A DNA stretch of 64,000 nucleotides. Origin: Chrysomallon squamiferum (Eukaryota > Mollusca > Gastropoda > Neomphalida > Peltospiridae). A program made the translations under genes and the position numbers. The notes under the pieces were generated by a model. That model was not told where the DNA came from. It worked only from the letters and a program-made list of their open reading frames with translations, and ran no database searches. Position 1 is the first letter of the stretch; each line of letters opens with the position of its first letter. Below, piece by piece: positions 5,779-61,187 of the stretch. The stretch covers positions 3,295,667-3,359,666 of the forward strand of contig CM022665.1 of the NCBI GenBank assembly GCA_012295275.1, read 5' to 3'.

Positions 5779-5833
<55 letters not shown>

Positions 5834-6328
5834 TTACACTTAGAGTAAAACATATTAGTTTGTATCTTTCGTTTTTGAACAGCTAACTGCAGATCTACGT
5901 GCAAGACAGATTACGACTGCACCGGTTCTCTGAAATGTTGCGTCAAAGGCTGTAGCATGACCTGCGTGGACGTTAGACCAGTCACGAACAAACCAGGCTT
6001 CTGTCCTACGTTCATAGACCACTGTTCCACGCTATGCACCGCCGACACCGACTGTCCACATTTCGAAAAATGTTGTGAAAGTGCATGTGGAACATCCTGT
6101 CAGACACCAGAGGGAGTAATTACCAGTACAAGTTCAAACAGCCAGTGCCCTCGCGACACCATGGTAGCGTCAGACTGCTGGAATCCATGTTCTTCAGACG
6201 CTGATTGTTTCGAGAGCGCTATGTGTTGTGAAACGTCATGTGGGCGAGTTTGCCTAAGTTCTACCAAGGGATCATCTTTTTACCCGCAGGCGGAAGAGCA
6301 GCGAATTGTGTTATCAACAATATCGTGA
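4175..6328 (+). CDS. Secreted protein with four WAP four-disulfide core domains
   Basis: Exons 4175-4237, 4740-4821, 5173-5370 and 5883-6328 have phases 0/1/1 that join correctly, giving 263 codons with the stop (TGA 6326-6328). The first two exons encode a Cys-rich segment of the pattern CxxxCPxGxxC...C...PC...C, which often accompanies WAP domains in invertebrate extracellular proteins. Then come four WAP domains, each with all eight cysteines and a central KCC or MCC pair: domain 1 in exon 3, domain 2 split by the phase-1 intron at 5371-5882, domains 3 and 4 in the last exon. WAP proteins are typically secreted protease inhibitors, antimicrobial factors or shell/matrix components; which applies here cannot be read from sequence. 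The true start and signal peptide are uncertain (see 3767-3799). Confidence 0.8.
4822..5860. repeat. Intronic repeats within the WAP gene
   Basis: The introns carry (ATTA)n at about 4841-4872 and again near 5486-5510, and a (GT)n tract at about 5784-5817 that runs directly into a poly-T tract just upstream of the last exon's acceptor. This (GT)n-(T)n arrangement next to an acceptor is length-variable in other genes and could affect exon inclusion. Confidence 0.8.
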
Positions 6329-35567: not shown

Positions 35568-36318
35568 TTAAATGAAACCAGTGAAACAGGAGATGATGAG
35601 GATGTGGAGGAGGATGAAGTATGCCCACAGCAGAGTCCGAATCCCAGGACGTAGGCGCATCATTCGATTGAGTTGCCTGCTGGAAAAGTACAAGTATTCC
35701 CTGAAGTGAAAACAGATAACAGCAATTTTTACAAGCCTACTGGAAGGAAAGAACAAGTTCTAAAGCTGTTGTCATGCAGTGTTAAAAAAAAACAATTAAA
35801 ACAAAAAAAAAATACATATGCTACCAATGAACAGTATTAATTTAATTTACTTTATTTAACTGAGTTAAAAATCTAGCAAATATGTGTTAACATTCAACAA
35901 TTAGAACAAAACACAAATATATAAAAATTCAATTTTTTTTTTTTTATAGTTGCATAAATCATAATCAGAGAAAGTAGATACCCATACTTTTTTACATTCA
36001 GCCATCTCTGAAATCGTTGGCAATAACCAAAACCATGACGAGCTGAAAATAAAACAAGTCAATGTTATTGTCAGTGTTTTCGTAAGTCTTTGTAATATTT
36101 GATAATTAAATACACTTTGGTAATGTAACAATAAATTTATATACTTGCATACAATTACAGCTTAAAATTAATTTTGAAAGAGAATTTTAACATTATAAGC
36201 AAAGTAAAGGAAATGCAATAAGAGTAATAAAGCAAGTTAAAAATAAGAAAAACTTACTTAACATAGGACTGATTTCCCTTATTTTTGATTCTTCAAACTC
36301 TTCCATATCAAGTTTTAC
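35568..36318 (-). CDS. GOLGB1: Golgin C-terminal exons: juxtamembrane helix and tail anchor
   Basis: Three small exons (36318-36258, 36042-35988, 35679-35568; phases 1 and 2) encode MEEFEESKIREISPML, then HGFGYCQRFQRWLNVK, then RQLNRMMRLRPG, the 20-residue membrane helix, and a short CFTGFI end before TAA (35570-35568). The run of basic residues before the helix faces the cytosol in tail-anchored proteins and helps set topology. The middle exon's donor (AAA AA|GTATGG) was chosen over an earlier GT because only it keeps the membrane helix in frame. Confidence 0.8.
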
Positions 36319-37353: not shown

Positions 37354-40300
37354 GAACTTTTCCATGTGAAGCCAATAATTATTTAAAAATTGCAGAAGTA
37401 ATAATAGGGTTTTTTCTTTTGTTTGTTTGATTTGTTTTGTTTATTTGTTTACACGTCATTGCCAGCAGTGACTATAGTTAATAATACTTTTTTCATTAAC
37501 AACGACATTGATCATTGTATGTTCAAACTGTTTGTCATTTCAAAGAAACATTTATGTTACTTTGTAGCTCATTTTGTTTTTTGTCACCTTGAATAAATTA
37601 TTTCTTCTGAACAAATTTATTTCTGGAGATATTTATTTTAAATCATTTCTTATTCAAAGTAAAAAGCGTGTTAAATCCAGTTAATATTTTCTTACAGCAG
37701 CAACTACTATTTAAAACACAACAACCTGTTAGAAAATTTCAAAACTCGACTTATGATTACAAATGATCCTACAGCTTCTACTGAATAAATAATCATTAGT
37801 TAGTATATTACAAAAAAAATAAATCAACTGAATGATTTAACTTTAGAACCTATTTTCGTTTCTTTTTTCTTTATAAAAATTAATCTTGTGTTAAGGACTC
37901 TTTAAACTATTCTGAATCTACCTACCTTCACTTGTGTGCTGAGGTGTGTTTGGTACAATTCACGATACTGCTGTTGCATGGCCAGACACTCTTGCTCTTT
38001 TTCTCGCAAAGACTTGGACAACTTGCCCAGCTGGAGGTTCAGGTAGCCTCTGTCTTCAGCCAACTGGCTCACCTTAAATACGACAGTTCTGATTAGTGAC
38101 ATGAATATCTCTGAGCTGCATGTTATTTACAAACATTATGACTTTTGTTGATGAGATAAAATGGCTAATTATTATTTCAGTTAGCGAGTTCCTGGGTTAT
38201 TAATTCAGTTTAAGTAATTTCAGGATTTTTGTTTAAGTCAGATATTTCGAAATTCAAAAGGATGAATATAGGTGTTAGCTGTTCAAACCATATTCATTAA
38301 AGCTTTTATTTGTATCCTTCCATCTGTGAAATGAACAGCACTTCATGTAATCTTTTTTCATTAATTTACCAAAATAAACCAATTTATCAGACAATTTCTT
38401 TTGTGTTATGCTTATTAAAACTTGACCAACCTGCATTGCCAGCTGCTGACATCTTGCCTCACGTTGCTGTGTACTGTGTAGAGCCTGGTTCAATTCCAGC
38501 TGAACCTGGTTCTTCTCAACTAAAGCTTTCGAAAACTGCTGCTGTAGTTTGTCGTATTCTGCCTGGAATTTTCCTGTTTGATCAGTTCCTGCTGCTGCTA
38601 CATCTAGCTGTGCTCTCAGGGTTTTGTTGTCAAACATCAGCTGCTGCAGCTTGGCTTCAGTTTGAGAGAGTTGTTGCTGTAGTTGTGAATTCTCCTCAGC
38701 CATTGATTTGCTTTGACCCTCAAGATCGTCTACTCTTCTTTGAAACACTTCTTTCTCTCTTTCCAGATGTTCTTTCTGTTCCACATTAAAACTGATCTCT
38801 CGACTCACTGTATTCAGTTCTTGGATTTTGTCGTTCAACTCTTCAATCTGATGAGCTAAACTGCTATTGTCTTTTAATACTTTGTTATACTGCTCATTCA
38901 ACATGTTAAACTCTGCTTCTATTGACATAACAGAAGCCATTTTATTCCTCAACTCATTCTCATGACTTCTTAAGGTTTCAATTTCAGAAGCTGATTTTTC
39001 AAGCTCTTCTTTGTACGTTTGTTCAACATTCAGCAAATACTTGGTTTGTTGTTTTTGTTTTTCCAGTTCTTCAATAAGCTGACTAATGTATTGATTTTTA
39101 CTGGCTAATTCTGATTCTATTTCTTTCAGTTTAGCATCAAATGAATCAACACGTTTATTCTGAGTAGTGGATAGCTCAAGCTCATTCTCCAGTATTTGTT
39201 TCTCCTTTTCAAGAGATGTATAACTGGTTTGCAACAAACTCAGTTCTGTCCTTGTAGACTCAAGTTCTTCTTCATATGCTGAGGCTTCTTCAAGCTTCCA
39301 AGACAAACCATCAGTTTTATCTTTCAAGCTCTGATTTTCATTCCTCAACTTTGTGAGTTCAAAGGTATTAACTTCAAGATCATTTTGCAGTGCTTCTGTT
39401 TCCATGACCTTCAAATTCAGATGACCAATTTCTTCTTTCAGTTCAGTATTTTCTCTTCTTATATTATCCAGTTCCTGGGATGTTTCACCGATTTCATTCT
39501 CAAGGGCACTCAGTTCCTGAATCTTCCAATTCAAGCCATCAATTGTTTCTTTCTGAGACTGTTTCTCTTTGTTTGCTAAAACTAAATCTTCTCGGAGTGC
39601 TTCAGTTTCTTCAACTAACTGATCCCTGTCAGATTCAAGTGAAATAATTCTGTCTTGTAATTCAGCCATAGTAACTTGCTGTTCTTCAAATCTGGTCACC
39701 TTTTGAAGTAAAAGTTGTTTTTCTTCATTGACAGAATTTAGTTCTTCTTTAACTCTATTATTTTCTTCTTCAACAGAAGATAATTTTGTTTCAAGGTCAT
39801 TTATAATTCCTGAATGCTGCTCACTGACAGCTAAATCTTCTCGTTGTTTGGAAAGAAAAAGTTTGCTTTCTTCAAGTTCTTTTTTCAGTTGTTCGTTATC
39901 TTCTTTAAGGCTCTGAATAATATTCTGAAACTCACTGTTATCTGTAAGAAGCATGTTATAATGGTTTTGCTGATCTTTCAGTTTGTTTTGTGTACTGTGC
40001 AGTTCTTGCTCCAGTGTTTCGTAACGAGTCAAAGTCTCTTGAACCTGTTCTTGTTCTTTCTCAAGAGAAGCCCTCAGATTATTTAGTTCTCTTTCTAACT
40101 GATCTGCTTTTTGTTTCTCAGAGTCTCTTTCATTTTCAATCTCACTAAGAGCTCTGTCACTGTAACGAGCTTCGTGCATTTGCTGAGCTTCATCAACCTG
40201 TACTTGAAGTTTTGATTTTAAGCGTTCAACTTCAGCACTAAGTCTATGAACTTTGTCATTCATGTCGACATTATCATGATACAAACGTGAATTGTCAATT

Positions 40301-43300
40301 TCCATTTTATGGAGTTGCTCTTGTAAATGCTGTCTTTCTTCCTTGAAGTGCTGGTCTTTAGAACGTTGATGGTCTTGTTGTTTTACTAACTCTGCCTGCA
40401 AGTTATCTTGCTCTTTCTGAAGTTCTTCATTTTTCACTTTAAAACTTTTCAGCTTTGCCAGCATTTTTTCGTTCTTTATTTCTATAACCTGCAGTTTATT
40501 TTTCAGCTTATCATGGTCGGTGAGCAAGTCATGGTACTTTTTCTGAATATTTGACAGTTCTTCTTGTGTTCGCTCGTTCACAACAGAAGAATCTTCACCT
40601 GACTGTCTTAATGTCTCATGCTCAAGTTTAGATGCAACTTCTGCTACAAACATCTTTTCAGATATCGGTACTTTTTCAGAAACTGCAATTCCTGAATCAG
40701 ATACTGAAATTCCTGAAGTATTCAATTCTGATAAATGTGACAGTCTAATTTCTAACTGTTCCTTTTCTTGCTTAAGTTGATTATTTTCTTCTTTGATGAT
40801 TTCAAATTTCTTTTGCAAATTTTTATACTGACCAGAAAGTTTTTCAGCATGTACCTGCAACTGTCTGCTTTCTTCCCTTGCTTCCTGCTCTCCAAACTGA
40901 GCATCTGCAACACTGCGCTCGAAGCCAGCAATCTCTCCTTGCAAAGTTTCAACTTCAGACTGAAGAATTTCTCGCTCTGATTCCATTTCATTTAATTTGG
41001 TATATAAACTTTCCAGAGAATTCTGCAAGTCTCTGATAGAAATCTGCATATTCTGAATGGTTTCAGCCTGAGCATCACATTCAGCTTTCAGATAATTCTT
41101 TTCAGCTTCCAGTTCATTCTTTTCTGAATTCACATTTTCTAACAAAAGTTTTAAACTTTCACAATTAGGACACTCTTTACTTTCTTCAGCCTGTTGACTT
41201 TCATTCTCTGATTTTTCTATCTGAATACTATCAGCAGAATTCTTTTCCTTAAGTACTGATACTTCCTCTTGCAGTGTAGCAACTTGTTGTTCTAGATGTG
41301 AATTTTCTTCCTGAATGTCTGCAAGCTCTTTTGTAAGCTCATCAAATGAAATCTTTGATTTTTCTAACTGTTCTTTACTTTCTTTGTGTTCATCACACAG
41401 AGATGAATATACATTATTCATTTCTTCAAGTTTGTTATTAAGATCAATTATCTTAGCATGACATTCATTATGGTTTCCACATTCACTGTTTATTCTTTGT
41501 AAAGAAGTCTGCAGTTTTTCGTTTGTTTCTTGCAAAAATTTTATTTCTTCATTACGCACATTTAGATTCTTCTGTAAGTCCTGTATTTGAGTAACGAATG
41601 AAACAGTTTCCTGTTTTAAAACTTCTCTTTCTTTCAAAGCATTCTCATAACTGAGTTTGATGTCTTCTGTTGCTTTCTGTAATGTGGATAAATCTAGCTG
41701 AAGTTTTTGAATTGTGGCTTCTTGGTCTTTGTGATGTTGCTGGTAATCTTTTAAAGCTTCCTCTGATTGTTTCAAAGCTTCTTCTTTTGACTCAACATTT
41801 TTTTCTAGTAACTTCATTTTGTCTTCAATAATTAACAACTGTTCAACAAATTCTTCTCTTTCTAAAGCAATCTGTTCAGATGACTTAAGAGATTCTGTTA
41901 AACTTTCTATTATATTATTCTTTTCATTCAGATCGTCTTCAAGGCGTAACATGGCTTCGGTTCTGGCCATCAACTGAACAATTGATTCTTCTCTTTCAGA
42001 AACAGATTGTTTATAGAAATCAACAGCCCCTTGAAGTTCCTGAATTGTCTCGTTTAGGTCTTTCACTTGAAGATCTTTCATTGCTGTCATTTCAGATTTT
42101 TGAATCTCCATATTATTTAACTGTTTCTTCAAACTCTGGTGCTCCTCGGTCAAGTTCTCAATACGACTTGACAGTTCAACATTTTCTTCCTTAAGCTTTT
42201 TTATTTCAGAGTCTTTCTGTCCAATCTGATACTCAGTAGCATGACATGTTTCAGTCAGTGACTGAACCTGACCCTGTAGCTGTTGAGAGTATTCTAAATA
42301 TGTCTGCATCTGCTCTTCCAACTCTTTCACTTTCACAGATTCATCTGTGGGTGTTGTTTCAGTAGATTCAGACTGTTTTGTTAGCCTTTCTATTTCCTCT
42401 TTGAGATTTTTCTCTCTCTGTTTAGCTTCATCTAGTTCTGAAGACACTTGACTCAGTTTTCCTTCAGACTCTTGTAACTGAAGCTTCAACTTCTTAACTG
42501 TGGCTAGAGCTTTCTTTGCTGTCAGTTCCCGAGATTCAAGAAGTCTCTGAGTTTTTTCCAATTTAGCAGCTGATTCTTCGAGTTCTGATTCAGAAATCTG
42601 ACCGATTCTTTCTTCCAGCTCTTGCATGTTTTCCAACAAAGATGTTATTTTGGTATCTTTTTCGTTGCATTTTTCAGTTAATTCTGCAATATGTTTCTGA
42701 GACTGGTCATAGAGTGACTGCAGATTAACAATGTCATCGGCTTTATTGCGTAATTGTTCACTAATGTGTTGAGTTACTTCTATCATTTCTTTTTCCTTTT
42801 CACTGAAACTACTTTTCAAGTTTTCAGCTGCAGAATTTTCAGCTTCTAATGCTTCCTCAAGACTTGTCACTCTGGCTTGAAACTCTACCTCAGCATCTAA
42901 TTTAGCCTGCAAAGTGTCTTCCAGTGTTTTCACCTGATCTACCAATAATTTTTCCCTTTCAGAAGAACCAATCTGAAGTGCCTCAAACGATTTTGTCATT
43001 TCTTCGAGTTGAGTTTGAATGAATCTGTTTTCAGCATTTAATTTACCAACTTCTTGTGTTTTTTCTTGCAGTTCATTGTCCAGTTTTTGTGCTTCTTCCA
43101 TAATACTCTGATGCTGATCAGATGAACCAGACTGAAGACTCTCGACAGTCGTATTTGCCATTTCTAGTTGTCTTTCAAGATTCTCAACTTTAGCCTTCCA
43201 CATAGTTTTTTCTTGCTGCATTTCTTCCAGAGACCTGGCAACATCTTCCAGTCTTGCTTCAGAAGATACCAGTTTATCTTGTAGTGCATCTTTTTCTTCT

Positions 43301-46300
43301 TGAAAACTATCCTGCTGAGATTTCAGTTGAAGATTCAGTTCCTCCACTGACTGCTTCAGATTATCCACCTACAAGATAAGAAATATCAAATCATTAAGTC
43401 ATCAAACCTTTGACACACACACATATATATATTAAACTTGTTTTATGTACATTTATGCTAGCATTTATTATAATAAAAAATAAGTCATTTTCTGAAACAA
43501 AAATAAAAAAAAAAAGACAAAGGAAAAATGTTTGTTTCAAATATCATGTCAATTAAACAAACAAAGTAAAACTGGAAATTTAAATTCAGGTAGTTTTACA
43601 TATGCACACATACCAATATATATCAACATTTTGAATTTTAAATGATTTTATGATTGTCTTTTTTTTTCTTTTTTTTTTTAAAAAGAAAAAAAAAAAGAAA
43701 AAAAAAAATGAAGAAAAATCAATTCAGATGATTACAGTTACATCAGTTTGTTTCAAGTGGATCTGAAACTAACTACTGTAAGTAATATAAATACTTATTA
43801 ATTAATACTAATATACTGCTCGCAAAGAATAATACCTGAATCAACTGTATTTATTTAGCTTGAAATATTTCTATCAGTGAACCTTTTAATAAATTATTAA
43901 CAAACAAATTCTAAAACTATTTGTATAAAGCAGTATGTTATTTTGTTTGTTTATTTATTTATTGTTTTTAGAATTTTATAAATATAATGCTAAAAAATAG
44001 ATTAATATGTTTGTATGGTTCAAGGTAAACATATATACTTGTAAATATGAAACTAATATACAGTTAATAAATATATACACGGAGATGTACAAGGCTATAC
44101 TGATATTGATTATAGATTACCATATGTTGCAGCGGTTATATAAACAGACTGTTACTGGAGTTTAATGTTAACAGTGCTGAATAATAAACTAGTGAGGTCA
44201 AACAAAGTTATAGTGTCCTTTCAGTTAAATGTGTATAAAATAAAAAACAAGAAGTGGAAATATTCATATTAGTGTAATATAACTTCAAATTGTGATTTTT
44301 TATTTATATTTTATCTTTTTATAAATATTAAAAAGAAAATATGTGTAAATCTGAACTAGCTGTAAACTATATCTCCATGCAAAACAATATGGTTAGCAGA
44401 ACAGTGTGTATCTTAAACTTGTATAAAAATTCAATAATTAAATTTAAACATAAAGAAAGTATTTTTATGTAAATTATCACAATTCACGTACTGAAACAGA
44501 ATGTAATGTTATATAAAAATATCAAATATCTAGTTATAATAAAATAAAATTATAAATGTTAACTCTGAAAGACAGTTATTTATTCTGTTCTGCTGTCATG
44601 AAAAAAAAAACGCTTATGAAAACATTCATAATGTGGAAATGTGTGCACGAACTATGGTAACTTATTTTATAATAATAATAATAAATAAAAAAACCCAACA
44701 TGATACTACTAATAACATACATTTCTACAATAATACGCTTTCTACCTAAAATGGATTAATAAAAATATTATAATTTGTCTATCATCTCGAAATTGTTACT
44801 TGGATACTTTTGATTACTAAGTTAGATTAACATTAAAGTGGTAACACGATAAAACAAAGCTTCCCAAAACAAAGCCTCTATTATCTATATTATATTGTGA
44901 AGCAGCAGCTGGCAAAGCAAAGAACAGTATATAGTGTTAGTAGTGAGCAAGGCATGTTAGACATTTTGAATATTAAAACATGATTATATTCAGCTTTCTC
45001 CTCTTCATCTTACTTGTTCATCCTTTTCTTGGTTTTGCTCCCTTAACCTCTCAAGATGAGACAACACAGTTACATGTTCTTTTGATTGCTGTTCAAACAC
45101 AGTTTGTTGTTCTTCATGCTGGCTCTGAAGCTGTTTTATCTGCAGTTGTAACACAGCTATTTCATGCATGTTTTCTTTAGTTTTAGCTTTTGTTTCATTA
45201 CTAAGAGAACATGACAGCTGTTGCTCATCCATTATAGAGTGTCCATATTCAAGGGGGACAACTTGATCACTGACTAAATTCTCACTGCATACAGCCACAG
45301 TATTTTCTGTAACACTAGCCAACTTCAGTTGACTTTCAGTATTGACATTTTGTGATACTAGAATATCCGGTGAAAGTATTTCTGAAGATGTCTCTTTATC
45401 AATATTCTTATTTAACTGCTGACACATAATTTCTTTTTCTTTTAGCTTTTCATTTAATAAATCAATCATCTTTTGGTGTGATTGTACAGAAAATTCTTTT
45501 TCTCTGATTGTGGCTTCGGCATTTTGTTGGTGTTTCTCTGCTCGATCTAACAAACTTTTATAATTCTCTATCTGTTCCACAAAATAGTTTATTTCATCAG
45601 TTTTTGATCTGTTGTCTGACACAAGTTGATCAATATTGTCCTGCAAGTGAGTAACTGTGGAAACATTTTCAGTTTCCATTTCTGCTGTTATTTTCTCAAG
45701 ATTTTGTTTGATCAAAGTTAGTCTGTTTATCACAGACATGTTTTCAGTGACCTGTTGTTGTAAGCATTTGATACGGTCCTCCAACTGCAGCACTATCTCA
45801 GACTTCTGCTGCAGTGCAATCTCTAAGGAATGTAAAGAAGTATGCATGGCATCCAAATCAGCCTGTTTAATCTCAGTTTGGATTAATTTGTCCTCCTTCT
45901 TCTGGTTAAGCATCTGTTTCAGCTGGTTCTCAGCCAGTAAGGTGCTGTTTAGCTCACACTGTGTCATTTCAAGTCTTTCCGTGATCATTTTCAACTGTTC
46001 TGAAGCAGACTCACAGTGGGCTGTCATTTTAACTAAATCTTTATTGATATGTGCTATCTTGGCATCTTTCTTTATTAATCTTTTTTGAAGTGATTCATTT
46101 TCCTTTTTTAATTCTGCCATGGACTTTTCATACTGAGCACATTTTTCAGTTAGCAGTTTCATTTCAGTAACCAAACTCTGGTTCTGTGTAACCAAGTTGT
46201 TAGCCACAGAATCTGCATACTGACAATGTTGTTGTAACTGTAGTACTTGCCTCTCATATTCTTCATTCTGCATTTTCACAGTGCACAACTCACTGTTCAA

Positions 46301-49300
46301 ACATCTGTTAGTTTCTGTCAATAGCATTATTTTGTTTTGCAGTTCTGACACTTCTGCACTTAATGACGTGTGAGGTTCATCAGTTTGCTTTGCTGTCCCT
46401 GCAAGTTCAGCTTCTAACTGATCCACTTTCTTATTGCTTTCTTCAAGTTGCTGAGCTACTTTCTGTAAATTGTCATTTGCTTGTTTTAACTGCTTTGCAA
46501 TGACTAGAGCTCTGGCCTCTTTCTTCTTTAAAAGCTTTTTAATTTTAGACATTTCATCGGACAAACTTTCTTTTTCTTTGGTTTCTGTGCTTGAGGTATG
46601 TGATGAGCTGGCAACTACAGTTTCTGAAGTCTGATCAGGAGAATATTCAGATTCATTGTGACTTATTTCAGTATCCGATCTTTCATGTTGTAATTCTAAA
46701 TGTTGCATCTCCTGCCAGCTCAGACCACCAATATTTCCTGAACTTGTACTTGACCTATCATAATTTTCCCATGCATCAGATTTTCCATCCCACTGTCCAT
46801 ATCCTCTTGGAGAAAGTATTTGCTCAGTTCTGGAATAATCTGGCATTTGTCTGCTGTAAGAATGCTGCTGCATATCCCAGGTCCTTCTATCACTTTCAAA
46901 TTCACTCTGCTGATAATATGAACATATTGCATTGGTGTACTGAAGTTCATCTTCTAAAACAGCAACCTGTTCTCTCAATATCTCAATTCGTGAATTCTGC
47001 ACCTCAATGATATGTTCTTTTGATTTCAGTTCTTCAGATTTCCTGTTCAGTTCAGTTTCGAGAGCTTGGTATTTACTTGGAATGTTACCATCACATTCAT
47101 TCGACTGATTTAATGTCAGTTGTGCTATATCTTGTTTATTTGTCATTATGATATTTTCATATTTATACTTTGTATCACTGAGGAGTGCATGCAGTTGGAT
47201 AATTTCTCTATCTTTTTCCTCTACAAGATCTTTCATCACATTCACTTCAACTTTCAAGGCTTCTTTCTCCTGAAATAATCCACTGTGGAAGGCTTCTGAG
47301 AAATGAGGATCAAGCCTTTCTTCCAAGGTCTGCTTTTCCAATTTCATCTCCTGAAGTTCTGTTTCAAGTTCATTTATGGTTTTAACAAAGTCGTTTATTT
47401 TCAATTCTTTATCATCGAGTGATTTTAAAAGATCATTTTTATCCCTTGATAGTATTTCTATTTTTTCTAATAACGATTGTGTGTGAAGAACTTTATCTGA
47501 AAGACAAGCTACCTGAACATTTCTTTCTTCCAGTAATGCTTTCAACTGCTCAGTCACCTTATCACTTTCTGAAAGACTCCTTTCACCATCTCCTTCTTGT
47601 GACTGTACAAGCTCCACTTTGTGCTCTGACATCTGCTGCTCCTTTTCCTGTAAAAAAAGTTGTAATTCACAACTCTTCCCTATTTGATTAAACATTTTAG
47701 AATCATATTTTGATAATTGTTTATAATTTTTAATGTATAGCATAATAAAATGACACCACCTATAATATTAGTAATTTTCTCTTAATGAATTTATGTGGTG
47801 AAAGTGTTTAATATGAAGTTTAAAAAGGCAGTTTAATTTTGTTTTTAGTATCTGAAACTGATTTTGCTGTATTTATATTTCTTTCACTCTTATAAATTAT
47901 GTCTTCTAAACTTTTATGCTGATAATTGTTATGTATTTTGTTGACAGCTTTAGTTGTTCATCAATAGTTGTAATTTTCTATGATATTTAGTTTTAAATCT
48001 CAAAAGTAATAAAAGTTCATTCTTGTCATGGATATTACAAACTGATTTCACAGGAATCTTTCTTTTCTTTCTTTTCAAAATATTATTGTTATTGTTATTG
48101 TTATTATTATTATTATTATTATTACTATTATTATTATTATTATTATTACTAAATTATCTGTGCTTATCTTTCAGTTTTATTAAACTGAATTTAATTTCTG
48201 TCACATTCTTCTTTGAACATAGACTGCAATCTATTTTAGAATTGTATCAGTTTCTTCTGCCAAATAGTGTATTTTGTTTACTGTAATGTTGAGATTGGTT
48301 AGCACTTGTAAACAACAAATTATTAGCTATTTGTTATTATCTAACAATTTCAGAATTAATTTCAAATGACCTGATACTGACCACAACCTATCAACAGACT
48401 ACAAAACTATTTAAATTTTTAATATTTTCAAACAAGCAATGATCTAGAACATAGTCTTCTGTCTGGAGCCTGTGTTTGTCCTTCTGAAAATGATTTATTT
48501 CAGAGGTGTGCTCACTAAGCTCCTCTTCTGAAAAGATGTTATCTTTCTGTATTAATACCTCTTGATTTTGGCTTCCATTAGATGCATAAACAACCACCTC
48601 ACTCTTTTCTGGACTTTCATTCTGTGATTCTCTTTCTGCTGATCTTAATATGAGTCTGTTCTGCTGTTTCATAGCTTCGCCATCCTTTTGAATGAAGTGT
48701 TCTTGTATACGTAACTTCTCTTCAATTAACCTCTCATAAGATATTTTCATTTCAGCAAGTTCACTATTAATAATGTTCCTTTCTTGAGTCAGTTCCTGAA
48801 TATTAATTTCATTCTCATCAACTTTAGACAGCAAATCCTTTATCTTCCTTGTGTTTTCATCATTTACAGTTACTAACATTTCTAGCTGAGAACTCAGTTC
48901 ACCTTTCTCACTTTCATATGAATTTGATATTGCCTGTTGCTTCTCCTCTACTGTCTTTTCTAAAGACCTTTGCTCTGACAGAAGATGTTCTATTTTTCCT
49001 GTCAGCTCCGCAATCCTGTTTTCATATGAATTTGAAAGTTCAGAAATCTGTCTATTCAGATCAGAATTCTTTTCCTCTAATATTTTTACATCAGATTCTA
49101 ACTGGGAACAACTTTCACTTAAATTATCTTTCAGTGTCTGAAGGTGTTGAAGTTTAGCTTCCAGTTCACAACACTGGCTAGAAATTTGTTCTTTTTCTTC
49201 TGTCAAATTTTCCAATTTATGTTTAATACTTACACAGATTTCCCTTTCGACTGTCAAGTCATTTGCCAGAGAAGAGCACTGGTCTTCAAGATGTGCACAT

Positions 49301-52300
49301 TTCGTTGTTAGTTTTTGTTTTTCTTCATTCAGCTTCTGAATGTGTGTTTCAAGACCAGAACACTTTTGATTCTGATCAAAGAGCTCAGCAGTGATCATTT
49401 CAATCTGACCATTTTTATCAGTGCACTGATCTTTATACTCTGTTAATTCAGAGTTAATTTTAACCATTTTCAGTTCTAGCGACTGAATCATTTCTTCAGA
49501 GATTGCTGTTTTGGATTTCAATTGATCCAAATTATCTTTCAAAGATTTTATTTGTGCATCTTTTTCCTCTAAAACAATCTGCATCTTTGAAGCATCAGAA
49601 AGTTCAGCCTGTAGTAATTCAAGCTGGTCAGAAAATCTCTGAGTCTCTGACTTTGATTCCTGTACCAACTTTTCTAATTTTGCTGTTTCCTCTTTCATTG
49701 AAACATTCTGGTTTTCAATGTTGTGGCATTTCTCTGACAACCTGGCCAACTCTTCTATTTTCTGGTTCAATTCATCTTGAAACATCTGCTTTTCTGAAGT
49801 TAACTCAGTTAATTTAGAATTCAGCGTGTCTGAATTTGTTTTCATTACACTAAGTTGACTTGTCAGATCTTCAGTCATCTTTTCCTGCTCTGCTAATTTT
49901 GTAGACAAATTTTCTACTTGACTTTCAAATAAACTGACCTTTTCGTCTTTTTCACTGATCTCCTTTTTGAGATATTCTGCATCACCAAGCAACTGTTCAT
50001 ACTAGCCCTTTAGTTTTGTTATGGTCTTCCTTTTCTTTATTCAGATCAGCTTCTAAACATTTTTGCTTATCACACAGTGATTTTATTTCTGTCTGGGCTG
50101 CATTATTTTGAGTATTTGCCATTTCTAGTTCATGCTCAACATCTCGTAATGACTTTGAAATATTTTCAATCAGTTTCTTCAAATTATTTTCACTTTCTGA
50201 CAGATCTTTGTTTTTATTAGAGAGCTGATTGATTTCATCGGACATGTCATCTTTGGTTCTAGATAGTGTTTCTCTCAACTGTGATAGTTCATATTCCACA
50301 GTTTGTTTTTCTGTCAGAGCTTCGCCAGCAAAGATTCCTTACACGCTACTAATTCATTCAGTCTGTTGACCTCAACTTGCAAGCTTGCATTACAAGATTC
50401 ACTTTTATTCAAACGTGTTAAAAGATCCTGCTTTTCTGATGTTAACTCTGTGACAGTATCCTTCTCTTTGTTTAGAATCTGGACAGTTTCATCCAATTTA
50501 CAAAAATTAGTTCTTTGTTTTCTGATGTCAGACTGGCTACTGTTTCGTTTGTGAACAATGTTGGCTTCTTTCTCCACGCTCAGCCAGTCACTCAGATTAC
50601 TTACTTGTGTTTGAAGATTTTCAATTTCATTTAAGTGAAGGCTCAGCTTTTCTCTGTGCACTTTGATCTCGTCTGTCAAATTTTCATTTTCATGAAAGAG
50701 ATCCTTCTTACTTTCATTCAAATTTGCTATTTCCTGTTGCTTCTCCTCTACTGTCTTTTCTAAAGACCTTTGCTCTGACAGAAGATGTTCTATTTTTCCT
50801 GTCAGCTCTGCAATCCTGTTTTCATATGAATTTGAAAGTTCAGAAATCTGTCTATTCAGATCAGAATTCTTTTCCTCTAATATTTTTACATCAGATTCTA
50901 ACTGGGAACAACTTTCACTTAATTTATCTTTCAGCGTCTCAATGTGCTCAAGTTTAGCTTCCAGTTCACAACACTGGCTAGAAATTTGTTCTTTTTCTTC
51001 TGTCAAATTTTCCAATTTATGTTTAATACTTACACAGATTTCCCTTTCGACTGTCAAGTCATTTGCCAGAGAAGAGCACTGGTCTTCAAGATGTGCACAT
51101 TTCGTTGTTAGTTTTTGTTTTTCTTCATTCAGCTTCTGAATGTGTGTTTCAAGACCAGAACACTTTTGATTCTGATCAAAGAGCTCAGCTGTGATCATTT
51201 CAATCTGACCATTTTTATCAGTGCACAGATCTTTATACTCTGTTAATTCAGAGTTAATTTTCTCCATTTTCAGTTCTAGCGACTGAATCATTTCTTCAGA
51301 GATTTCTGTTTTGGATTTCAATTGATCCAAATTATCTTTCAAAGATTTTATTTGTGCATCTTTTTCCTCTAAAACAATCTGCATCTTTGAAGCATCAGAA
51401 AGTTCAGCTTGTAGTAATTCAAGCTGGTCAGAAAATCTCTGAGTCTCTGACTTTGATTCCTGTACCAACTTTTCTAATTTTGCTGTTTCCTCTTTCATTG
51501 AAACATTCTGGTTTTCAATGTTGTGGCATTTCTCTGACAACCTGGCCAACTCTTCTATTTTCTGGTTCAATTCATCTTGAAACATCTGCTTTTCTGAAGT
51601 TAACTCAGTTAATTTAGAATTCAGCGTGTCTGAATTTGTTTTCATTACACTAAGTTGACTTGTCAGATCTTCAGTCATCTTTTCCTGCTCTGCTAATTTG
51701 GTAGACAAATTTTCTACTTGACTTTCAAATAAACTGACCTTTTCGTCTTTTTCACTGATCTCCTTTTTGAGATATTCCGCATCACCAAGCAACTGTTCGT
51801 ACTGCCCTTTAGTTTTGTTATGGTCTTCCTTTTCTTTATTCAGATCAGCTTCTAAACATTTTTGCTTATCACACAGTGATTTTATTTCTGTCTGGGCTGC
51901 ATTATTTTGAGTATTTGCCATTTCTAGTTCATGCTCAACATCTCGTAATGACTTAGAAATATTTTCAATCAGTTTCTTCAAATTATTTTCACTTTCTGAC
52001 AGATCTTTGTTTTTATTAGAGAGCTGATTGATTTCATCGGACATGTCATCTTTGGTTCTAGATAGTGTTTCTCTCGACTGTGATAGTTCATATTCCACAG
52101 TTTGTTTTTCTGTCAGAGCTTCGGCCAGCAAAGATTCCTTACACGCTACTAATTCATTCAGTCTGTTGACCTCAACTTGCAAGCTTGCATTACAAGATTC
52201 ACTTTTATTCAAACGTGTTAAAAGATCCTGCTTTTCTGATGTTAACTCTGTGACAGTATCCTTCTCTTTGTTTAGAATCTGGACAGTTTCATCCAATTTA

Positions 52301-55300
52301 CAAATTAGTTCTTTGTTTTCTGATGTCAGACTGGCTACTGTTTCGTTGTGAACAATGTTGGCTTCTTTCTCCACGTTCAGCCAGTCACTCAGATTACTTA
52401 CTTGTGTTTGAAGATTTTCAATTTCATTTAAGTGAAGGCTCAGCTTTTCTCTGTGCACTTTGATCTCGTCTGTCAAATTTTCATTTTCATGAAAGAGATC
52501 CTTCTTACTTTCATTCAAATTTGCTATTTCCTGTTGCTTCTCCTCTACTGTCTTTTCTAAAGACCTTTGCTCTGACAGAAGATGTTCTATTTTTCCTGTC
52601 AGCTCTGCAATCCTGTTTTCATATGAATTTGAAAGTTCAGAAATCTGTCTATTCAGATCAGAATTCTTTTCCTCTAATATTTTTACATCAGATTCTAACT
52701 GGGAACAACTTTCACTTAATTTATCTTTCAGCGTCTCAATGTGCTCAAGTTTAGCTTCCAGTTCACAACACTGGCTAGAAATTTGTTCTTTTTCTTCTGT
52801 CAAATTTTCCAATTTATGTTTAATACTTACACAGATTTCCCTTTCGACTGTCAAGTCATTTTGCCAGAAGAGAGCACTGGTCTTCAAGATGTGCACATTT
52901 CAAAGTTAGTTTTGTTTTTCTTCATTCAGCTTCTGAATGTGTGTTTCAAGACCAGAACACTTTTGATTCTGATCAAAGAGCTCAGCTGTGATCATTTCAA
53001 TCTGGCCATTTTTATCAGTGCACAGATCTTTATACTCTGTTAATTCAGAGTTAATTTTCTCCATTTTCAGTTCTAGCGACTGAATCATTTCTTCAGAGAT
53101 TTCTGTTTTTAGATTTCAATTGATCCAAATTATCTTTCAAAGATTTTATTTGTGCATCTTTTTCCTCTAAAACAATCTGCATCTTTTTGAGCATCAGAAA
53201 GTTCAGCTTGTAGTAATTCAAGCTGGTCAGAAAATCTCTGAGTCTCTGACTTTGATTCCTGTACCAACTTTTCTAATTTTGCTGTTTCCTCTTTCATTGA
53301 AACATTCTGGTTTTCAATGTTGTGGCATTTCTCTGACAACCTGGCCAACTCTTCTATTTTCTGGTTCAATTCATCTTGAAACATCTGCTTTTCTGAAGTT
53401 AACTCAGTTAATTTAGAATTCAGCGTGTCTGAATTTGTTTTCATTACACTAAGTTGACTTGTCAGATCTTCAGTCATCTTTTCCTGCTCTGCTAATTTGG
53501 TAGACAAATTTTCTACTTGACTTTCAAATAAACTGACCTTTTCGTCTTTATCACTGATCTCCTTTTTGAGATATTCCGCATCACCAAGCAACTGTTCGTA
53601 CTGCCCTTTAGTTTTGTTATGGTCTTCCTTTTCTTTATTCAGATCAGCTTCTAAACATTTTTGCTTATCACACAGTGATTTTATTTCTGTCTGGGCTGCA
53701 TTATTTTGAGTATTTGCCATTTCTAGTTCATGCTCAACATCTCGTAATGACTTAGAAATATTTTCAATCAGTTTCTTCAAATTATTTTCACTTTCTGACA
53801 GATCTTTGTTTTTATTAGAGAGCTGATTGATTTCATCGGACATGTCATCTTTGGTTCTAGATAGTGTTTCTCTCGACTGTGATAGTTCATATTCCACAGT
53901 TTGTTTTTCTGTCAGAGCTTCGGCCAGCAAAGATTCCTTACACGCTACTAATTCATTCAGTCTGTTGACCTCAACTTGCAAGCTTGCATTACAAGATTCA
54001 CTTTTATTCAAACGTGTTAAAAGATCCTGCTTTTCTGATGTTAACTCTGTGACAGTATCCTTCTCTTTGTTTAGAATCTGGACAGTTTCATCCAATTTAC
54101 AAATTAGTTCTTTGTTTTCTGATGTCAGACTGGCTACTGTTTCGTGTGAACAATGTTGGCTTCTTTCTCCACGTTCAGCCAGTCACTCAGATTACTTACT
54201 TGTGTTTGAAGATTTTCAATTTCATTTAAGTGAAGGCTCAGCTTTTCTCTGTGCACTTTGATCTCGTCTGTCAAATTTTCATTTTCATGAAAGAGATCCT
54301 TCTTACTTTCATTCAGATTTGCTATTTCCTGTTGCTTCTCCTCTACTGTCTTTTTCTAAAGACCTTTGCTCTGACAGAAGATGTTCTATTTTTCCTGTCA
54401 GCTCTGCAATCCTGTTTTCATATGAATTTGAAAGTTCAGAAATCTGTCTATTCAGATCAGAATTCTTTTCCTCTAATATTTTTACATCAGATTCTAACTG
54501 GGAACAACTTTCACTTAATTTATCTTTCAGCGTCTCAATGTGCTCAAGTTTAGCTTCCAGTTCACAACACTGGCTAGAAATTTGTTCTTTTTCTTCTGTC
54601 AAATTTTCCAATTTATGTTTAATACTTACACAGATTTCCCTTTCGACTGTCAAGTCATTTGCCAGAGAAGAGCACTGGTCTTCAAGATGTGCACATTTCG
54701 TTGTTAGTTTTTGTTTTTCTTCATTCAGCTTCTGAATGTGTGTTTCAAGACCAGAACACTTTTGATTCTGATCAAAGAGCTCAGCTGTGATCATTTCAAT
54801 CTGGCCATTTTTATCAGTGCACAGATCTTTATACTCTGTTAATTCAGAGTTAATTTTCTCCATTTTCAGTTCTAGCGACTGAATCATTTCTTCAGAGATT
54901 TCTGTTTTGGATTTCAATTGATCCAAATTATCTTTCAAAGATTTTATTTGTGCATCTTTTTCCTCTAAAACAATCTGCATCTTTGAAGCATCAGAAAGTT
55001 CAGCTTGTAGTAATTCAAGCTGGTCAGAAAATCTCTGAGTCTCTGACTTTGATTCCTGTACCAACTTTTCTAATTTTGCTGTTTCCTCTTTCAGTGAAAC
55101 ATTCTGGTTTTCAATGTCGTGGCATTTCTCTGACAACGTGGCCAACTCTTCTATTTTCTGGTTCAATTCATCTTGAAACATCTGCTTTTCTGAAGTTAAC
55201 TCAGTTAATTTAGAATTCAGCGTGTCTGAATTTGTTTTCATTACACTAAGTTGACTTGTCAGATCTTCAGTCATCTTTTCCTGCTCTGCTAATTTGGTAG

Positions 55301-58300
55301 ACAAATTTTCTACTTGACTTTCAAATAAACTGACCTTTTCGTCTTTTTCACTGATCTCCTTTTTGAGATATTCTGCATCACCAAGCAACTGTTCATACTG
55401 CCCTTTAGTTTTGTTATGGTCTTCCTTTTCTTTATTCAGATCAGCTTCTAAACATTTTTGCTTATCACACAGTGATTTTATTTCTGTCTGGGCTGCATTA
55501 TTTTGAGTATTTGCCATTTCTAGTTCATGCTCAACATCTCGTAATGACTTTGAAATATTTTCAATTTCTTTCTTCAAATTATTTTCACTTTCTGACAGAT
55601 CTTTGTTTTTATTAGAGAGCTGATTGATTTCATCGGACATGTCATCTTTGGTTCTAGATAGTGTTTCTCTCAACTGTGATAGTTCATATTCCACAGTTTG
55701 TTTTTCTGTCAGAGCTTCGGCCAGCAAAGATTCCTTACACGCTACTAATTCATTCAGTCTGTTGACCTCAACTTGCAAGCTTGCATTACAAGATTCACTT
55801 TTATTCAAACGTGTTAAAAGATCCTGCTTTTCTGATGTTAACTCTGTGACAGTATCCTTCTCTTTGTTTAGAATCTGGACAGTTTCATCCAATTTACAAA
55901 TTAGTTCTTTGTTTTCTGATGTCAGACTGGCTACTGTTTCGTTGTGAACAATGTTGGCTTCTTTCTCCACGTTCAGCCAGTCACTCAGATTACTTACTTG
56001 TGTTTGAAGATTTTCAATTTCATTTAAGTGAAGGCTCAGCTTTTCTCTGTGCACTTTGATCTCGTCTGTCAAATTTTCATTTTCATGAAAGAGATCCTTC
56101 TTACTTTCATTCAAATTTGCTATTTCCTGTTGCTTCTCCTCTACTGTCTTTTTCTAAAGACCTTTGCTCTGACAGAAGATGTTCTATTTTTCCTGTCAGC
56201 TCTGCAATCCTGTTTTCATATGAATTTGAAAGTTCAGAAATCTGTCTATTCAGATCAGAATTCTTTTCCTCTAATATTTTTACATCAGATTCTAACTGGG
56301 AACAACTTTCACTTAATTTATCTTTCAGCGTCTCAATGTGCTCAAGTTTAGCTTCCAGTTCACAACACTGGCTAGAAATTTGTTCTTTTTCTTCTGTCAA
56401 ATTTTCCAATTTATGTTTAATACTTACACAGATTTCCCTTTCGACTGTCAAGTCATTTGCCAGAGAACAGCACTGGTCTTCAAGATGTGCACATTTCGTT
56501 GTTAGTTTTTGTTTTTCTTCATTCAGCTTCTGAATGTGTGTTTCAAGACCAGAACACTTTTGATTCTGATCAAAGAGCTCAGCTGTGATCATTTCAATTT
56601 GACCATTTTTATCAGTGCACTGATCTTTATACTCTGTTAATTCAGAGTTAATTTTAACCATTTTCAGTTCTAGCGACTGAATCATTTCTTCAGAGATTTC
56701 TGTTTTGGATTTCAATTGATCCAAATTATCTTTCAAAGATTTTATTTGTGCATCTTTTTCCTCTAAAACAATCTGCATCTTTGAAGCATCAGAAAGTTCA
56801 GCTTGTAGTAATTCAAGCTGGTCAGAAAATCTCTGAGTCTCTGACTTTGATTCCTGTACCAACTTTTCTAATTTTGCTGTTTCCTCTTTCAGTGAAACAT
56901 TCTGGTTTTCAATGTCGTGGCATTTCTCTGACAACGTGGCCAACTCTTCTATTTTCTGGTTCAATTCATCTTGAAACATCTGCTTTTCTGAAGTTAACTC
57001 AGTTAATTTAGAATTCAGCGTGTCTGAATTTGTTTTCATTACACTAAGTTGACTTGTCAGATCTTCAGTCATCTTTTCCTGCTCTGCTAATTTTGTAGAC
57101 AAATTTTCGACCTGACTTTCAAATAAACTAACCTTTTCATCTTTTTCACTGATCTGCTTTTTGAGATATTCTGCATCACCAAGCAACTGTTCGTACTGCC
57201 CTTTGGTTTTGTTATGGTCTTCCTTTTCTTTATTCAGATCAGCTTCTAAACATTTTTGCTTATCACACAGTGATTTTATTTCTGTCTGGGCTGCATTATT
57301 TTGAGTATTTGCCATTTCTAGATCATGCTCAACATCTCGTAATGACTTTGAAATATTTTCAATCTCTTTCTTCAAATTATTTTCACTTTCTGACAGATCT
57401 TTGTTTTTATTAGAGAGCTGATTGATTTCATCAGACATGTTATCTTTGGTTCTAGATAGTGTTTCTCTCAACTGTGATAGTTCATATTCCACAGTTTGTT
57501 TTTCTGTCAGAGCTTCGGCCAGCAAAGATTCCTTACACGCTACTAATTCATTCAGTCTGTTGACCTCAACTTGCAAGCTTGCATTACAAGATTCACTTTT
57601 ATTCAAACATGTTAAAAGATCCTGCTTTTCTGATGTTAACTCTGACAGTATCCTTCTCTTTGTTTAGAAACTGGACTGTTTCATCCAATTTACAAATTAG
57701 TTCTTTGTTTTCTGATGTCAGACTAGCTAATCTTTCGTTGTGAACAATGTTGGCTTCTTTCTCCACATTCAGCCAGTCACTCAGATTATTTACTTGTGTT
57801 TGAAGATTTTCAATTTCATTTAAGTAAAGACTCAGCTTTTCTCCGTGCACTTTGACTTCATCTGTTAAATTTTCTTTTTCCTGCAACAAAATTTTATTAT
57901 TTTCATGCAAACTTCCCACCTGTTTCTCTTTTTCTTCTGTGATCTTTTTCATGTCTTCTGCCAAAGAGGCCTTCTCCGAGTGTAGTTGTTCTATTAAACT
58001 GGACTGCTCTTCTTTGGTTTTTTTCAACAGCTCAAGTTGCAACATCATTTCTTCAAACTGTAATTCATGTTGTGTGGTAAGTTCAGAACCCTTTATTTCA
58101 AGCGCAGCATTGGCTTCTTCAAGATTCTTTATAGTGAGCTCTAACTGTGAACACTTTTCTGTTAAAGTGTTATTTTGTATTTGGACATCCTGAAGCTTAG
58201 TTTCCAGATTAGTACAATGATTCAAAATGTTCTGATTTTTCTTTTGTTCCTCTTCAATATTATTCTGTGTTGTAGTACATTTTTCCTTTTCATCCAATAA

Positions 58301-61187
58301 CATTTTCTCAAGATCATCATACTTCAAAGTCATTTCTTGTTTTTCTTCATTCAGCTTCTGAATGTGTGTTTCAAGACCAGAACACTTTTGATTCTGATCA
58401 AAAAGCTCAGCTGTGATCATTTCAATCTGGCCGTTTTTATCAGTACACAGATTTTTATACTCTGTTAATTCAGAGTTAATTTTCTCTATTTTCAGTTCTA
58501 GAGACTGAATCATTTCTTCAGAGATTTTAATTTTAGAGTTTGCTTCTTCTAAATTTTCTCTGAGTGATTTTATTTTATCATCCTTTTCTTCCAAAACCTT
58601 TTGCATTTTTGATGTGTCAGAATCCAGAGAATCAGACAATGAAGATATTCTTTCTTCTTTTTCACAAAGTTCTGCCTGTAAAATTTGAAGCTGGTCAGAA
58701 AATCTCTGAGTCTCTGACTTTGATTCCTGTACCAACTTTTCTAATTTTGCTGTTTCCTCTTTCAGTGAAATATTCTGGTTTTCAATGTCGTGGCATTTCT
58801 CTGACAACGTGGCCAACTCTTCTATTTTCTGGTTCAGATCATCTTGAAACATCTGCTTTTCTGAAGTCAACTCAGTTAATTTAGAATTCAGCGTGTCTGA
58901 ATTTGTTTTCATTACACTAAGTTGACTTGTCAGATCTTCAGTCATCTTTTCCTGCTCTGCTAATTTGGTAGACAAATTTTCTACCTGACTTTCAAATAAA
59001 CTGACCTTTTCGTCTTTTTCACTGAACTGCTTTTTGAGATATTCCGCATCACCAAGCAACTGTTCGTACTGCCCTTTGGTTTTGTTATGGTCTTCCTTTT
59101 CTTTATTCAGATCAGCTTGTAAACATTCTTGTAACTGTGTCAAATGTTTATGCTGTTCACATAAAGATAAAACCTCAGTACTTTTTTCTTCTAATGTTTT
59201 TTTAAGACTATCATTAAACGAAACTTGCTCTTCAAGATTTTTGGTGAGATTTTGAACCTCTTCTTTATAAAGTGTTTCTGTTTTCTGCTTTTCTTCTAAC
59301 TCTTGTTCCATCTCTGACAGCTGACTGAGGAGAGACTCTGTTTTCTCACCAAATGTTTTTGCTTTCTCACTTTGCTTCTCTTGTAACAATTCAACTTGAT
59401 GATTTAGTTTGTTTACCAGCACTTCCAGTTCTTTCGACTTTCTCTTCTGCTCTTCAAAGCTAGAATTTAATTCTTCAGTCTCACTGTTTTTTATTTCAAG
59501 GTTCTGGTTTAGTTCATGAACTCTGTCCTCCCATTCTGAAATTTCGTGAGACATGTTTTTACATTTGGCCTCCAAATGCTTCACTTGTTCAGAAAGGTCA
59601 AGACACACTGCTGAGTTTGAAGACTGAAGAGAATTTATTTCTTCTTTTGTCTCACTAATGTTCTGATTTAACTGAAGAATTCTATTTTCCCTTTCTGCTA
59701 ATTCGCTGGACAGATTTTCACTTTTTTCTTTAAACGATGATAACATATCATTAAGTTGTTTCAGCTCTGTTGAATGACTAGCCAGCATTTGATTTTTCTC
59801 CTCTTTTATTGCCTTTGTTATCTGTCTTTCTGACTGAAGACTCTGCTGCACTTCTTCAAGCTGTAAAAACATTTGGAAGAAACTTAAATGAAGTGAATAG
59901 CCTACAAATTAAACTACAGAAATGACGACCTGATGTTATTTAGTAATACACAGACTAAAACTTTATTGCACTACATGAAACTGACAGATGCTGAATAATT
60001 TGAAAATTAAAAACAATCTGTTGCAAAACATAATCCCACCAACTAACAAACATACAAAACAAATGAACTCAGATACCTTTATGACTATAGTACAGTGGTC
60101 TCCCCAGCATTTGTGAAAGGGATGGTGGGAATCGGTGTAACAGGTGCAATTTAAAGGAACGGATGGTACAGAAAACATTCAGGGTACAAGTACTTTGAAC
60201 AATTTCAAATTACTTGTTTGTCACAAATACTCCTATAAATAATTGCATCATATGCATTAACTATCTTACAGTATGTAGCGAGACCTCTGTATTAATATGC
60301 AACATGAAGATGATGCTCATTTTAATTTCATATTTCTACAAACCTTTATAAGAAGTTCATCTTTCTCTTTCTCGAAAGCAATGTTAGGTTGTTTCTCATA
60401 TTCTATCTTTTCTTTGAGTGTCTTGATTTGTTCTAATAATTCTTCTTTTTCCTTCTCAACATCTAAAACAGAAAAATTATGAATAATAAGAAAATTGAAT
60501 GTAAATTTCAAGGTTAGTCTCATTGATTAGCAAGAAGAAATAATTTTTATCTGAATATGTCTGTGTTTATTGTTTGCTCACATAACGAAAACAATAAAAA
60601 GTTTGATAATGATAATTTTGTATCTCAGTAGTAATTATCAGATGCTAAAATGAATCAAAGGTCTGAAAATTTTACCATCTTTGGACTCCTCTATTTCAGC
60701 CATCTTCATTTCCAGTTCCACTTTCTCTCCTTTCAGTGCTGTGATAATCTCCTCTTTCTGTTTACATTCCTCTTCAAGTGATGTCACCACTGAGTTTAGC
60801 TGTGTAATTTGGTTTGTCATTTCAATCTGTTACACAAATATAACATTTAGTAGTGAAAATACATCCACGTTAAAGAAGAGATTTGTTTATATTTCCACTT
60901 TACCAAACTGATCACAATCTTTTAATCTATAAAAATATGTAATTATTATCATTACAATTATGTCTTAAAAGATATACAAATATGACAAGTATTAGCTAAA
61001 TGTACATATACCAATGTTTACTAGTTTCCATTTTGGTATTTTATGGATTAGTTACAGAACAGGTAGCTAGTTCAAGACATCCTGAAAATATCCGGCTTTT
61101 AAAACCTAATACTAGTTTACTAAACAATAAAGATAAGCACTACAGTCTTAGTTCCAAACTCTGTTCAAGCCAAAAAAATTCAGTAAC

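Follow-up and report, generated by a model that had tools for sequence, protein, structure and literature searches.

The Locus and the Tandem Array

The window analyzed here, a stretch of 64,000 nucleotides (nt) from the gastropod Chrysomallon squamiferum (assembly GCA_012295275.1, contig CM022665.1, positions 3,295,667 to 3,359,666), carries on its minus strand a large gene with the layout of the tail-anchored golgin giantin, and one exon of this gene contains a tandem array. Self-comparison of window positions 36001-64000 found five head-to-tail copies of a unit of about 1,797 bp at 48905-57911, at offsets of about 1,800, 3,597, 5,395, and 7,193 and with 96.3-98.4% identity between recent copies in self-BLAST; a repeat of this kind is far beyond chance. 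Alignment of the units gave a majority unit of 1,797 nt, or 599 codons, with a single completely open frame. The copies start at 48905, 50705, 52502, 54300, and 56098 (the array ending at 57911) and, as cut, measure 1,800, 1,797, 1,798, 1,798, and 1,814 nt in the same order; since the gene lies on the minus strand, copy 5 is read first and copy 1 last. The array is absent from the output of Tandem Repeats Finder because the longest period there was 500. A first-pass annotation of this DNA had described five near-identical 1,797-bp copies, head to tail, as a recent tandem growth, and both statements agree with what was found. A sixth, older and diverged copy, which it also reported, is present and is indeed older, but it is partial and covers only about 1,160 of the 1,797 unit positions. 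The elements of the repeat, in the order in which the gene is read, are as follows; a frame break is a frame-shifting insertion or deletion (indel).

57912-59131, minus strand: older partial copy, unit positions 638-1797, directly ahead of copy 5
48905-57911, minus strand: five-unit array, from the self-BLAST offsets and identity and the unit alignment
56098-57911, minus strand: copy 5, the 5′-most, with two frame breaks, one common to copy 4
54300-56097, minus strand: copy 4, with one frame break, common to copy 5
52502-54299, minus strand: copy 3, with five frame breaks, four of them within about 330 nt
50705-52501, minus strand: copy 2, the sole copy free of frame breaks
48905-50704, minus strand: copy 1, the 3′-most, with four frame breaks

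The differences between the recent copies are not evenly spread. Private differences are densest at the outer edges, namely at the start of copy 5, which holds the most of them (34 of 76 variable sites, concentrated in its first ~310 nt), and at the end of copy 1, where they cluster in the last ~220 nt at the array edge. Other variants are common to mixed groups of copies. Together, these features form a pattern of unequal exchange and not one of simple assembly stutter. In copy 3, the frame breaks come with clustered private substitutions that resemble errors. It is very improbable that an assembly error made the entire array out of one or two true copies: repeats are described as a cause of assembly errors (PMC6868369), and copies 1 and 3 carry error-like changes, but sequencing error does not readily yield a silent-site divergence of 1.7-6.7% (six of the ten recent pairs), group-shared variants, and private edge differences. 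Stitching of haplotypes, in which a block of copies is repeated as two alleles, is also not favored, because it predicts that copies 1/3 and 2/4, or copies 1/4 and 2/5, are close; 27 and 11 differences were seen for the former and 20 and 33 for the latter, as against 10 for copies 2/3.

The number of copies is a separate matter. Over 1,510 positions, copies 2 and 3 show 10 differences. Nine of these are private to copy 3, and eight of the nine fall no farther than 12 nt from one of its indels. Only 2 differences between the two copies are found outside this distance of any indel, and the evidence for a separate copy 3 is thin because so few differences remain. This closeness, together with the difficulty of placing the inner copies of a 9-kb array, would be expected if the array were real and its copy number inflated, with two to four true recent copies and an inner copy duplicated by the assembler, copy 3 (relative to copy 2) being the suspect. 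Such inflation is nevertheless rather unlikely, in that at one position copy 3 has the letter of copy 4 and not that of copy 2, copy 3 is free of the indel of copies 4 and 5, and copies 1, 2, 4, and 5 are mutually distinct away from indels. With the same 12-nt margin kept around every indel, the differing positions number 15, 10, and 29 when copy 2 is set against copies 1, 4, and 5, and 19, 30, and 23 for the three pairings of copies 1, 4, and 5 with one another. These pairwise differences of 10-30 inner positions indicate at least four recent copies, perhaps five.

The older partial copy records an earlier event. A single alignment (78% identity, 1,461 columns, 28 gap openings) carries its match to unit positions 638-1797 from 59131 on into copy 5. 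In the old copy itself, identity to the recent copies is 95-96% over the first ~470 nt and 86-88% over the next ~290 nt and is weaker over the remainder. Synonymous divergence in these three successive parts rises from 0.105 to 0.48 and then to about 2.5 (saturated), as against 0.017-0.067 between recent copies (six of ten pairs). Thus, the module was duplicated long ago and multiplied recently, and a recent copy has replaced part of the old one or exchanged sequence with it. When eight regions of the gene were locally aligned with the unit and compared with 60 heptad-block shuffles, exon 8, both halves of exon 9, and the tail of the old copy clearly exceeded all shuffles, the start of exon 7 (187 vs. 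183) and the last 229 residues of the protein (90 vs. 86) were barely above the shuffle maximum, and exons 1-6 and the end of exon 7 gave no score above the shuffles. Exon 8 (45014-47647) and the two halves of exon 9 (38431-43368), all on the minus strand, may hold very old copies of the module or share a coiled-coil texture with it; older copies are not claimed there.

The Gene and Its C-Terminal Anchor

The array is part of a minus-strand gene model of 15 exons, with an AG acceptor or a GT donor at each visible border. The gene continues at its 5′-end past position 64000, so that the window does not include the N-terminal end of the protein, the part that binds p115 in giantin. The exons are as follows:

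64000-63778, 62624-62507, 62282-62131, 61539-61354, 60826-60676, and 60462-60344, minus strand: exons 1-6, with GT-AG at the borders seen
48559-59860, minus strand: exon 7, containing the entire array, 11,302 nt, with an AG acceptor and a GT donor
45014-47647, minus strand: exon 8, coiled coil, 878 codons
38431-43368, minus strand: exon 9, coiled coil, 1,646 codons
35568-38072, minus strand: exons 10-15, to the stop codon, with GT-AG borders and an open frame
35571-35633, minus strand: C-terminal transmembrane anchor, LLWAYFILLHILIISCFTGFI, directly ahead of the stop codon

Exons 1-6 amount to 949 nt in the window and join the start of exon 7 as one open frame of 1,036 codons, and exons 8-15 join uninterrupted to encode 2,742 residues and a stop codon. 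Strong hydrophobicity is confined to the last 21 residues (hydropathy of 2.08 over 19 residues, the best value outside the last 80 residues being 0.76), which points to a C-terminal membrane anchor. This hydrophobic C-terminus directly before the stop codon fits a tail-anchored golgin layout, in keeping with the giantin-like gene named in the first-pass annotation. The anchor helix contains a tyrosine, recorded here as present and not as aligned in position to that of giantin. Pfam matches along the rod were of the generic coiled-coil kind and were not used for naming, and the C-terminal 229 residues gave no match in the PDB.

Homologous proteins were sought by scoring the ~8,000 candidates that had the most words in common with each query. 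Exon 9 (1,644 residues as a query) found three homologs of 1,611, 1,805, and 1,641 residues, with 27, 35, and 27% identity over 53, 16, and 55% of the query, respectively. The motif QR[ED]ARCQQLA is common to all three and to exon 9, where it lies near the 3′-edge, and each homolog stops within ~25 residues past this motif, where exon 9 also stops. Exon 9 is a giant exon in its own right with homologs of similar length, as if its length were kept while its sequence drifts.

Frame Breaks and Selection

As assembled, exon 7 is not open: its 11,302 nt (1 mod 3) are covered by six pieces of open reading frame. Copy 1 carries four frame-shifting indels, copy 3 five, copy 4 one, and copy 5 two, and copy 2 carries none; the total is 11 events, or 12 if the break common to copies 4 and 5 enters once for each copy. 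Corrected for the array indels, exon 7 comprises 11,298 nt and reads as 3,766 codons without a stop (the other two frames contain 370 and 479), is in phase with exon 6, and gives exon 8 the phase that it requires. The earlier claim that the array lies within one exon therefore stands for the exon as reconstructed, with no stop codons and in phase once the indels are disregarded, whereas the assembled sequence is interrupted by 11 frame-shifting indels.

All 11 events fall within the 9,007 nt of the array. The remaining 11,473 coding nt of the model, which take in the old partial copy, show no frame break; frame-preserving indels would escape detection there. If a single rate applied throughout, the chance of this distribution, calculated as the array share raised to the eleventh power, would be 1.2e-4. 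Since repeats hinder polishing, indels confined to the array are what would be expected of errors.

The substitutions tell of a frame that has been maintained. The copies differ by 45 substitutions (the first 60 and last ~230 positions of the unit, as well as sites no more than 8 nt from an indel, being excluded), of which 20 are synonymous, 25 are replacements, and none creates a stop codon, as against a random expectation of 24% synonymous, 71% replacement, and 5% stop (p = 0.0034). Copy 3 contributes four private substitutions to this set (three replacement, one synonymous), and without them the split is 19:22 (p = 0.0024). The ratio of replacement to synonymous divergence (dN/dS) is 0.23-0.46 between recent copies, over six of the ten pairs, copy 3 having been omitted for its error-like changes, and 0.39 over 380 codons between the recent and old copies. 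Taken together, the split and the ratios show that the frame was under purifying selection during both rounds of copying.

With no breaks elsewhere in the gene, an exon that is open and in phase, and purifying selection on the frame, consensus errors or very recent breaks are favored over old decay, and we infer that most of the frame-shifting indels are consensus errors, in a repeat that resists polishing. If the breaks were real, the array would have a coding history and the present allele would be broken, its protein truncated before the anchor or the gene reduced to a pseudogene. The number of events (11, in four of the five copies) and the break common to copies 4 and 5 speak for this, yet it is quite unlikely. 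The exons that follow exon 7 weigh against a broken allele: their 2,742 residues, the anchor among them, form a fully open frame with GT-AG borders, and untranslated sequence would decay. Moreover, the frame breaks are confined to the repeat and none of the 45 changes produced a stop by substitution, so that real breaks would have to be very recent.

The Encoded Module and the Predicted Protein

The majority unit encodes 599 residues, is rich in E, L, K, and S, and contains no proline. Its heptad score is 0.105 per residue, as against -0.081 for ten shuffles. In four joined units, a simple heptad model of our own gave three phase breaks per unit, near residues 155, 369, and 561 (143 instead of 155 in the first unit), and no break at the borders between units, from which it follows that the heptad register closes over one unit. 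Copy 2 alone (50704-52500), folded by AlphaFold without an alignment, was predicted as four long helices with three short breaks and about 96% helix, with a mean predicted local distance difference test score (pLDDT) of 73 and a predicted template modeling score (pTM) of 0.29. The description of the repeat as a coiled-coil module is thus upheld by a heptad score above that of the shuffles, the lack of proline, and the predicted helix content of copy 2.

The standard rise of a coiled coil is 0.1485 nm per residue, at which one unit would span ~89 nm and five units ~445 nm if fully coiled. With the array indels taken as errors, the predicted protein has at least ~6,824 residues, the sum of 316, 3,766 (exon 7), and 2,742 (exons 8-15); the coiled-coil evidence for this model covers the unit and the head with two units (heptads) and copy 2 (fold). 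On the same condition, this sum matches the ~6,800 residues previously estimated for the window. If the four extra copies (~2,400 residues) were removed, ~4,430 residues would be left in the window. Giantin has 3,259 residues in human and 3,356 in zebrafish (PMC5082667). Hence, a protein about twice the usual length, as had been proposed, is in keeping with the ~6,824 residues predicted, but the array alone is not the cause: it lengthens the protein by about half and does not account for the whole doubling. Golgin coiled coils are reported to have breaks, and one golgin was found to be shorter than predicted (PMC5082667), so that full extension should not be assumed.

Probable Growth of the Golgin by Whole Modules

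The reading that we regard as probable is that the array is a real, selected, and recent module array in a tail-anchored, giantin-like golgin, that it grew in two rounds, and that its indels are mostly consensus errors. In such a scheme, a coiled-coil segment would have been duplicated long ago, and a 1,797-bp (599-codon) unit over that segment would later have been multiplied by unequal exchange to about five copies, which may have partly homogenized one another and part of the old copy. Because the unit is a whole number of codons and its heptad register closes, each copy would add ~89 nm of rod (if fully coiled) with frame and register intact. The C-terminal helix would anchor the protein in the Golgi membrane, and a very long, hinged rod, in which stiff segments alternate with short breaks, would extend outward, probably to catch vesicles. 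Each module would then add length without altering the frame, the register, or the ends, and the copy number would set the reach.

Several observations weigh against this reading. As assembled, four of the five copies carry frame breaks, and copies 4 and 5 (54300-57911, minus strand) have one break at an identical unit position, which looks inherited or copied, so that not all breaks have the appearance of independent errors. Copy 3 may be an assembly duplicate instead of a separate copy, and errors may also account for some of the 25 replacement changes. The heptad run of the head and two units breaks at the join between the head and the array (a join that omitted 18 nt of copy 5), and the AlphaFold confidence for copy 2 is moderate, with no residue at or above a pLDDT of 90. 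Furthermore, neither exon 8 nor the frame of copies 1/2 had a protein match among the ~8,000 candidates scored for each.

A further step, possible though doubtful, is that the array is fully translated and that its copy number varies among individuals or close species, in which case the reach of a Golgi tether would be set by a genetic repeat number, and golgins assembled from hinged ~89-nm modules would form a natural series of lengths. If the probable reading is true, recent growth by ~2,400 residues in whole modules under purifying selection would be a natural experiment on tether reach, and if the copy number differs among individuals, how much the length of such a rod matters would be directly testable. 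If, on the other hand, the frame breaks are real, the locus would call for caution about repeats in draft genomes.

Neighboring Genes

Two other sets of coding pieces were seen in the window. Beside the golgin gene lies a gene with an ALS2CR8 domain, which we take to be that of the calcium-responsive transcription factor family; three of its pieces match PF15299 (two above the cut-off and one below), and further exons may extend to ~31700. The second set encodes WAP (four-disulfide core) domains, with one matched stretch in its first piece and three in its second. Searches of Rfam (at gathering thresholds) and a tRNA scan gave no match.

27375-29925, plus strand: ALS2CR8-domain gene
5166-6328, plus strand: WAP domains

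Comparison with Known Systems

Among the matches listed in the open-licence PMC literature, none described a recent tandem module in a golgin; as evidence of absence, this is weak. One counterpart in layout is giantin, with which the protein shares a single transmembrane anchor at the C-terminus, preceded by most of the protein, and, as predicted, a very long coiled coil and a very large size. The rod of vertebrate giantin is reported to be conserved in length and not in sequence (PMC5082667). By contrast, the golgin described here does not keep to that length, being about twice as long (if the indels are errors), and contains a recent tandem array of 599-residue units. The likeness to giantin is one of layout, hence giantin-like, and orthology is not claimed. 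One survey calls giantin chordate-specific (PMC5840792); it is possible that giantin-like golgins are more widely distributed.

Golgin-84 and CASP, which are located at Golgi rims (PMC5840792), share the same anchor layout. A tyrosine in the anchor helix is described as a trait of CASP and has been suggested for golgin-84 and giantin (PMC5840792), and the present protein has one as well. The last 229 residues gave no match to a golgin-84 or CASP profile at E ≤ 1, the only matches being three weak and unrelated ones (E of 0.05-0.25). Pfam includes profiles of both families, and golgin-84 and CASP are far shorter than the golgin at this locus.

Coding arrays of near-identical, kilobase-scale units are known from the kringles of apolipoprotein(a) and from epiplakin, in which protein length follows copy number. 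These arrays are built from other kinds of module and do not form a continuous coiled-coil spacer. A precedent is NUP-1 of trypanosomes, a large protein that is almost all coiled coil and contains 17 near-perfect tandem repeats of 144 residues, the number of which differs between species and which are near-identical within a protein and diverged between species (PMC3313915). NUP-1 is a protist protein of the nuclear periphery with no predicted membrane helix and a unit four times shorter; what it shares with the golgin described here is a run of near-identical tandem repeats within a coiled-coil rod.

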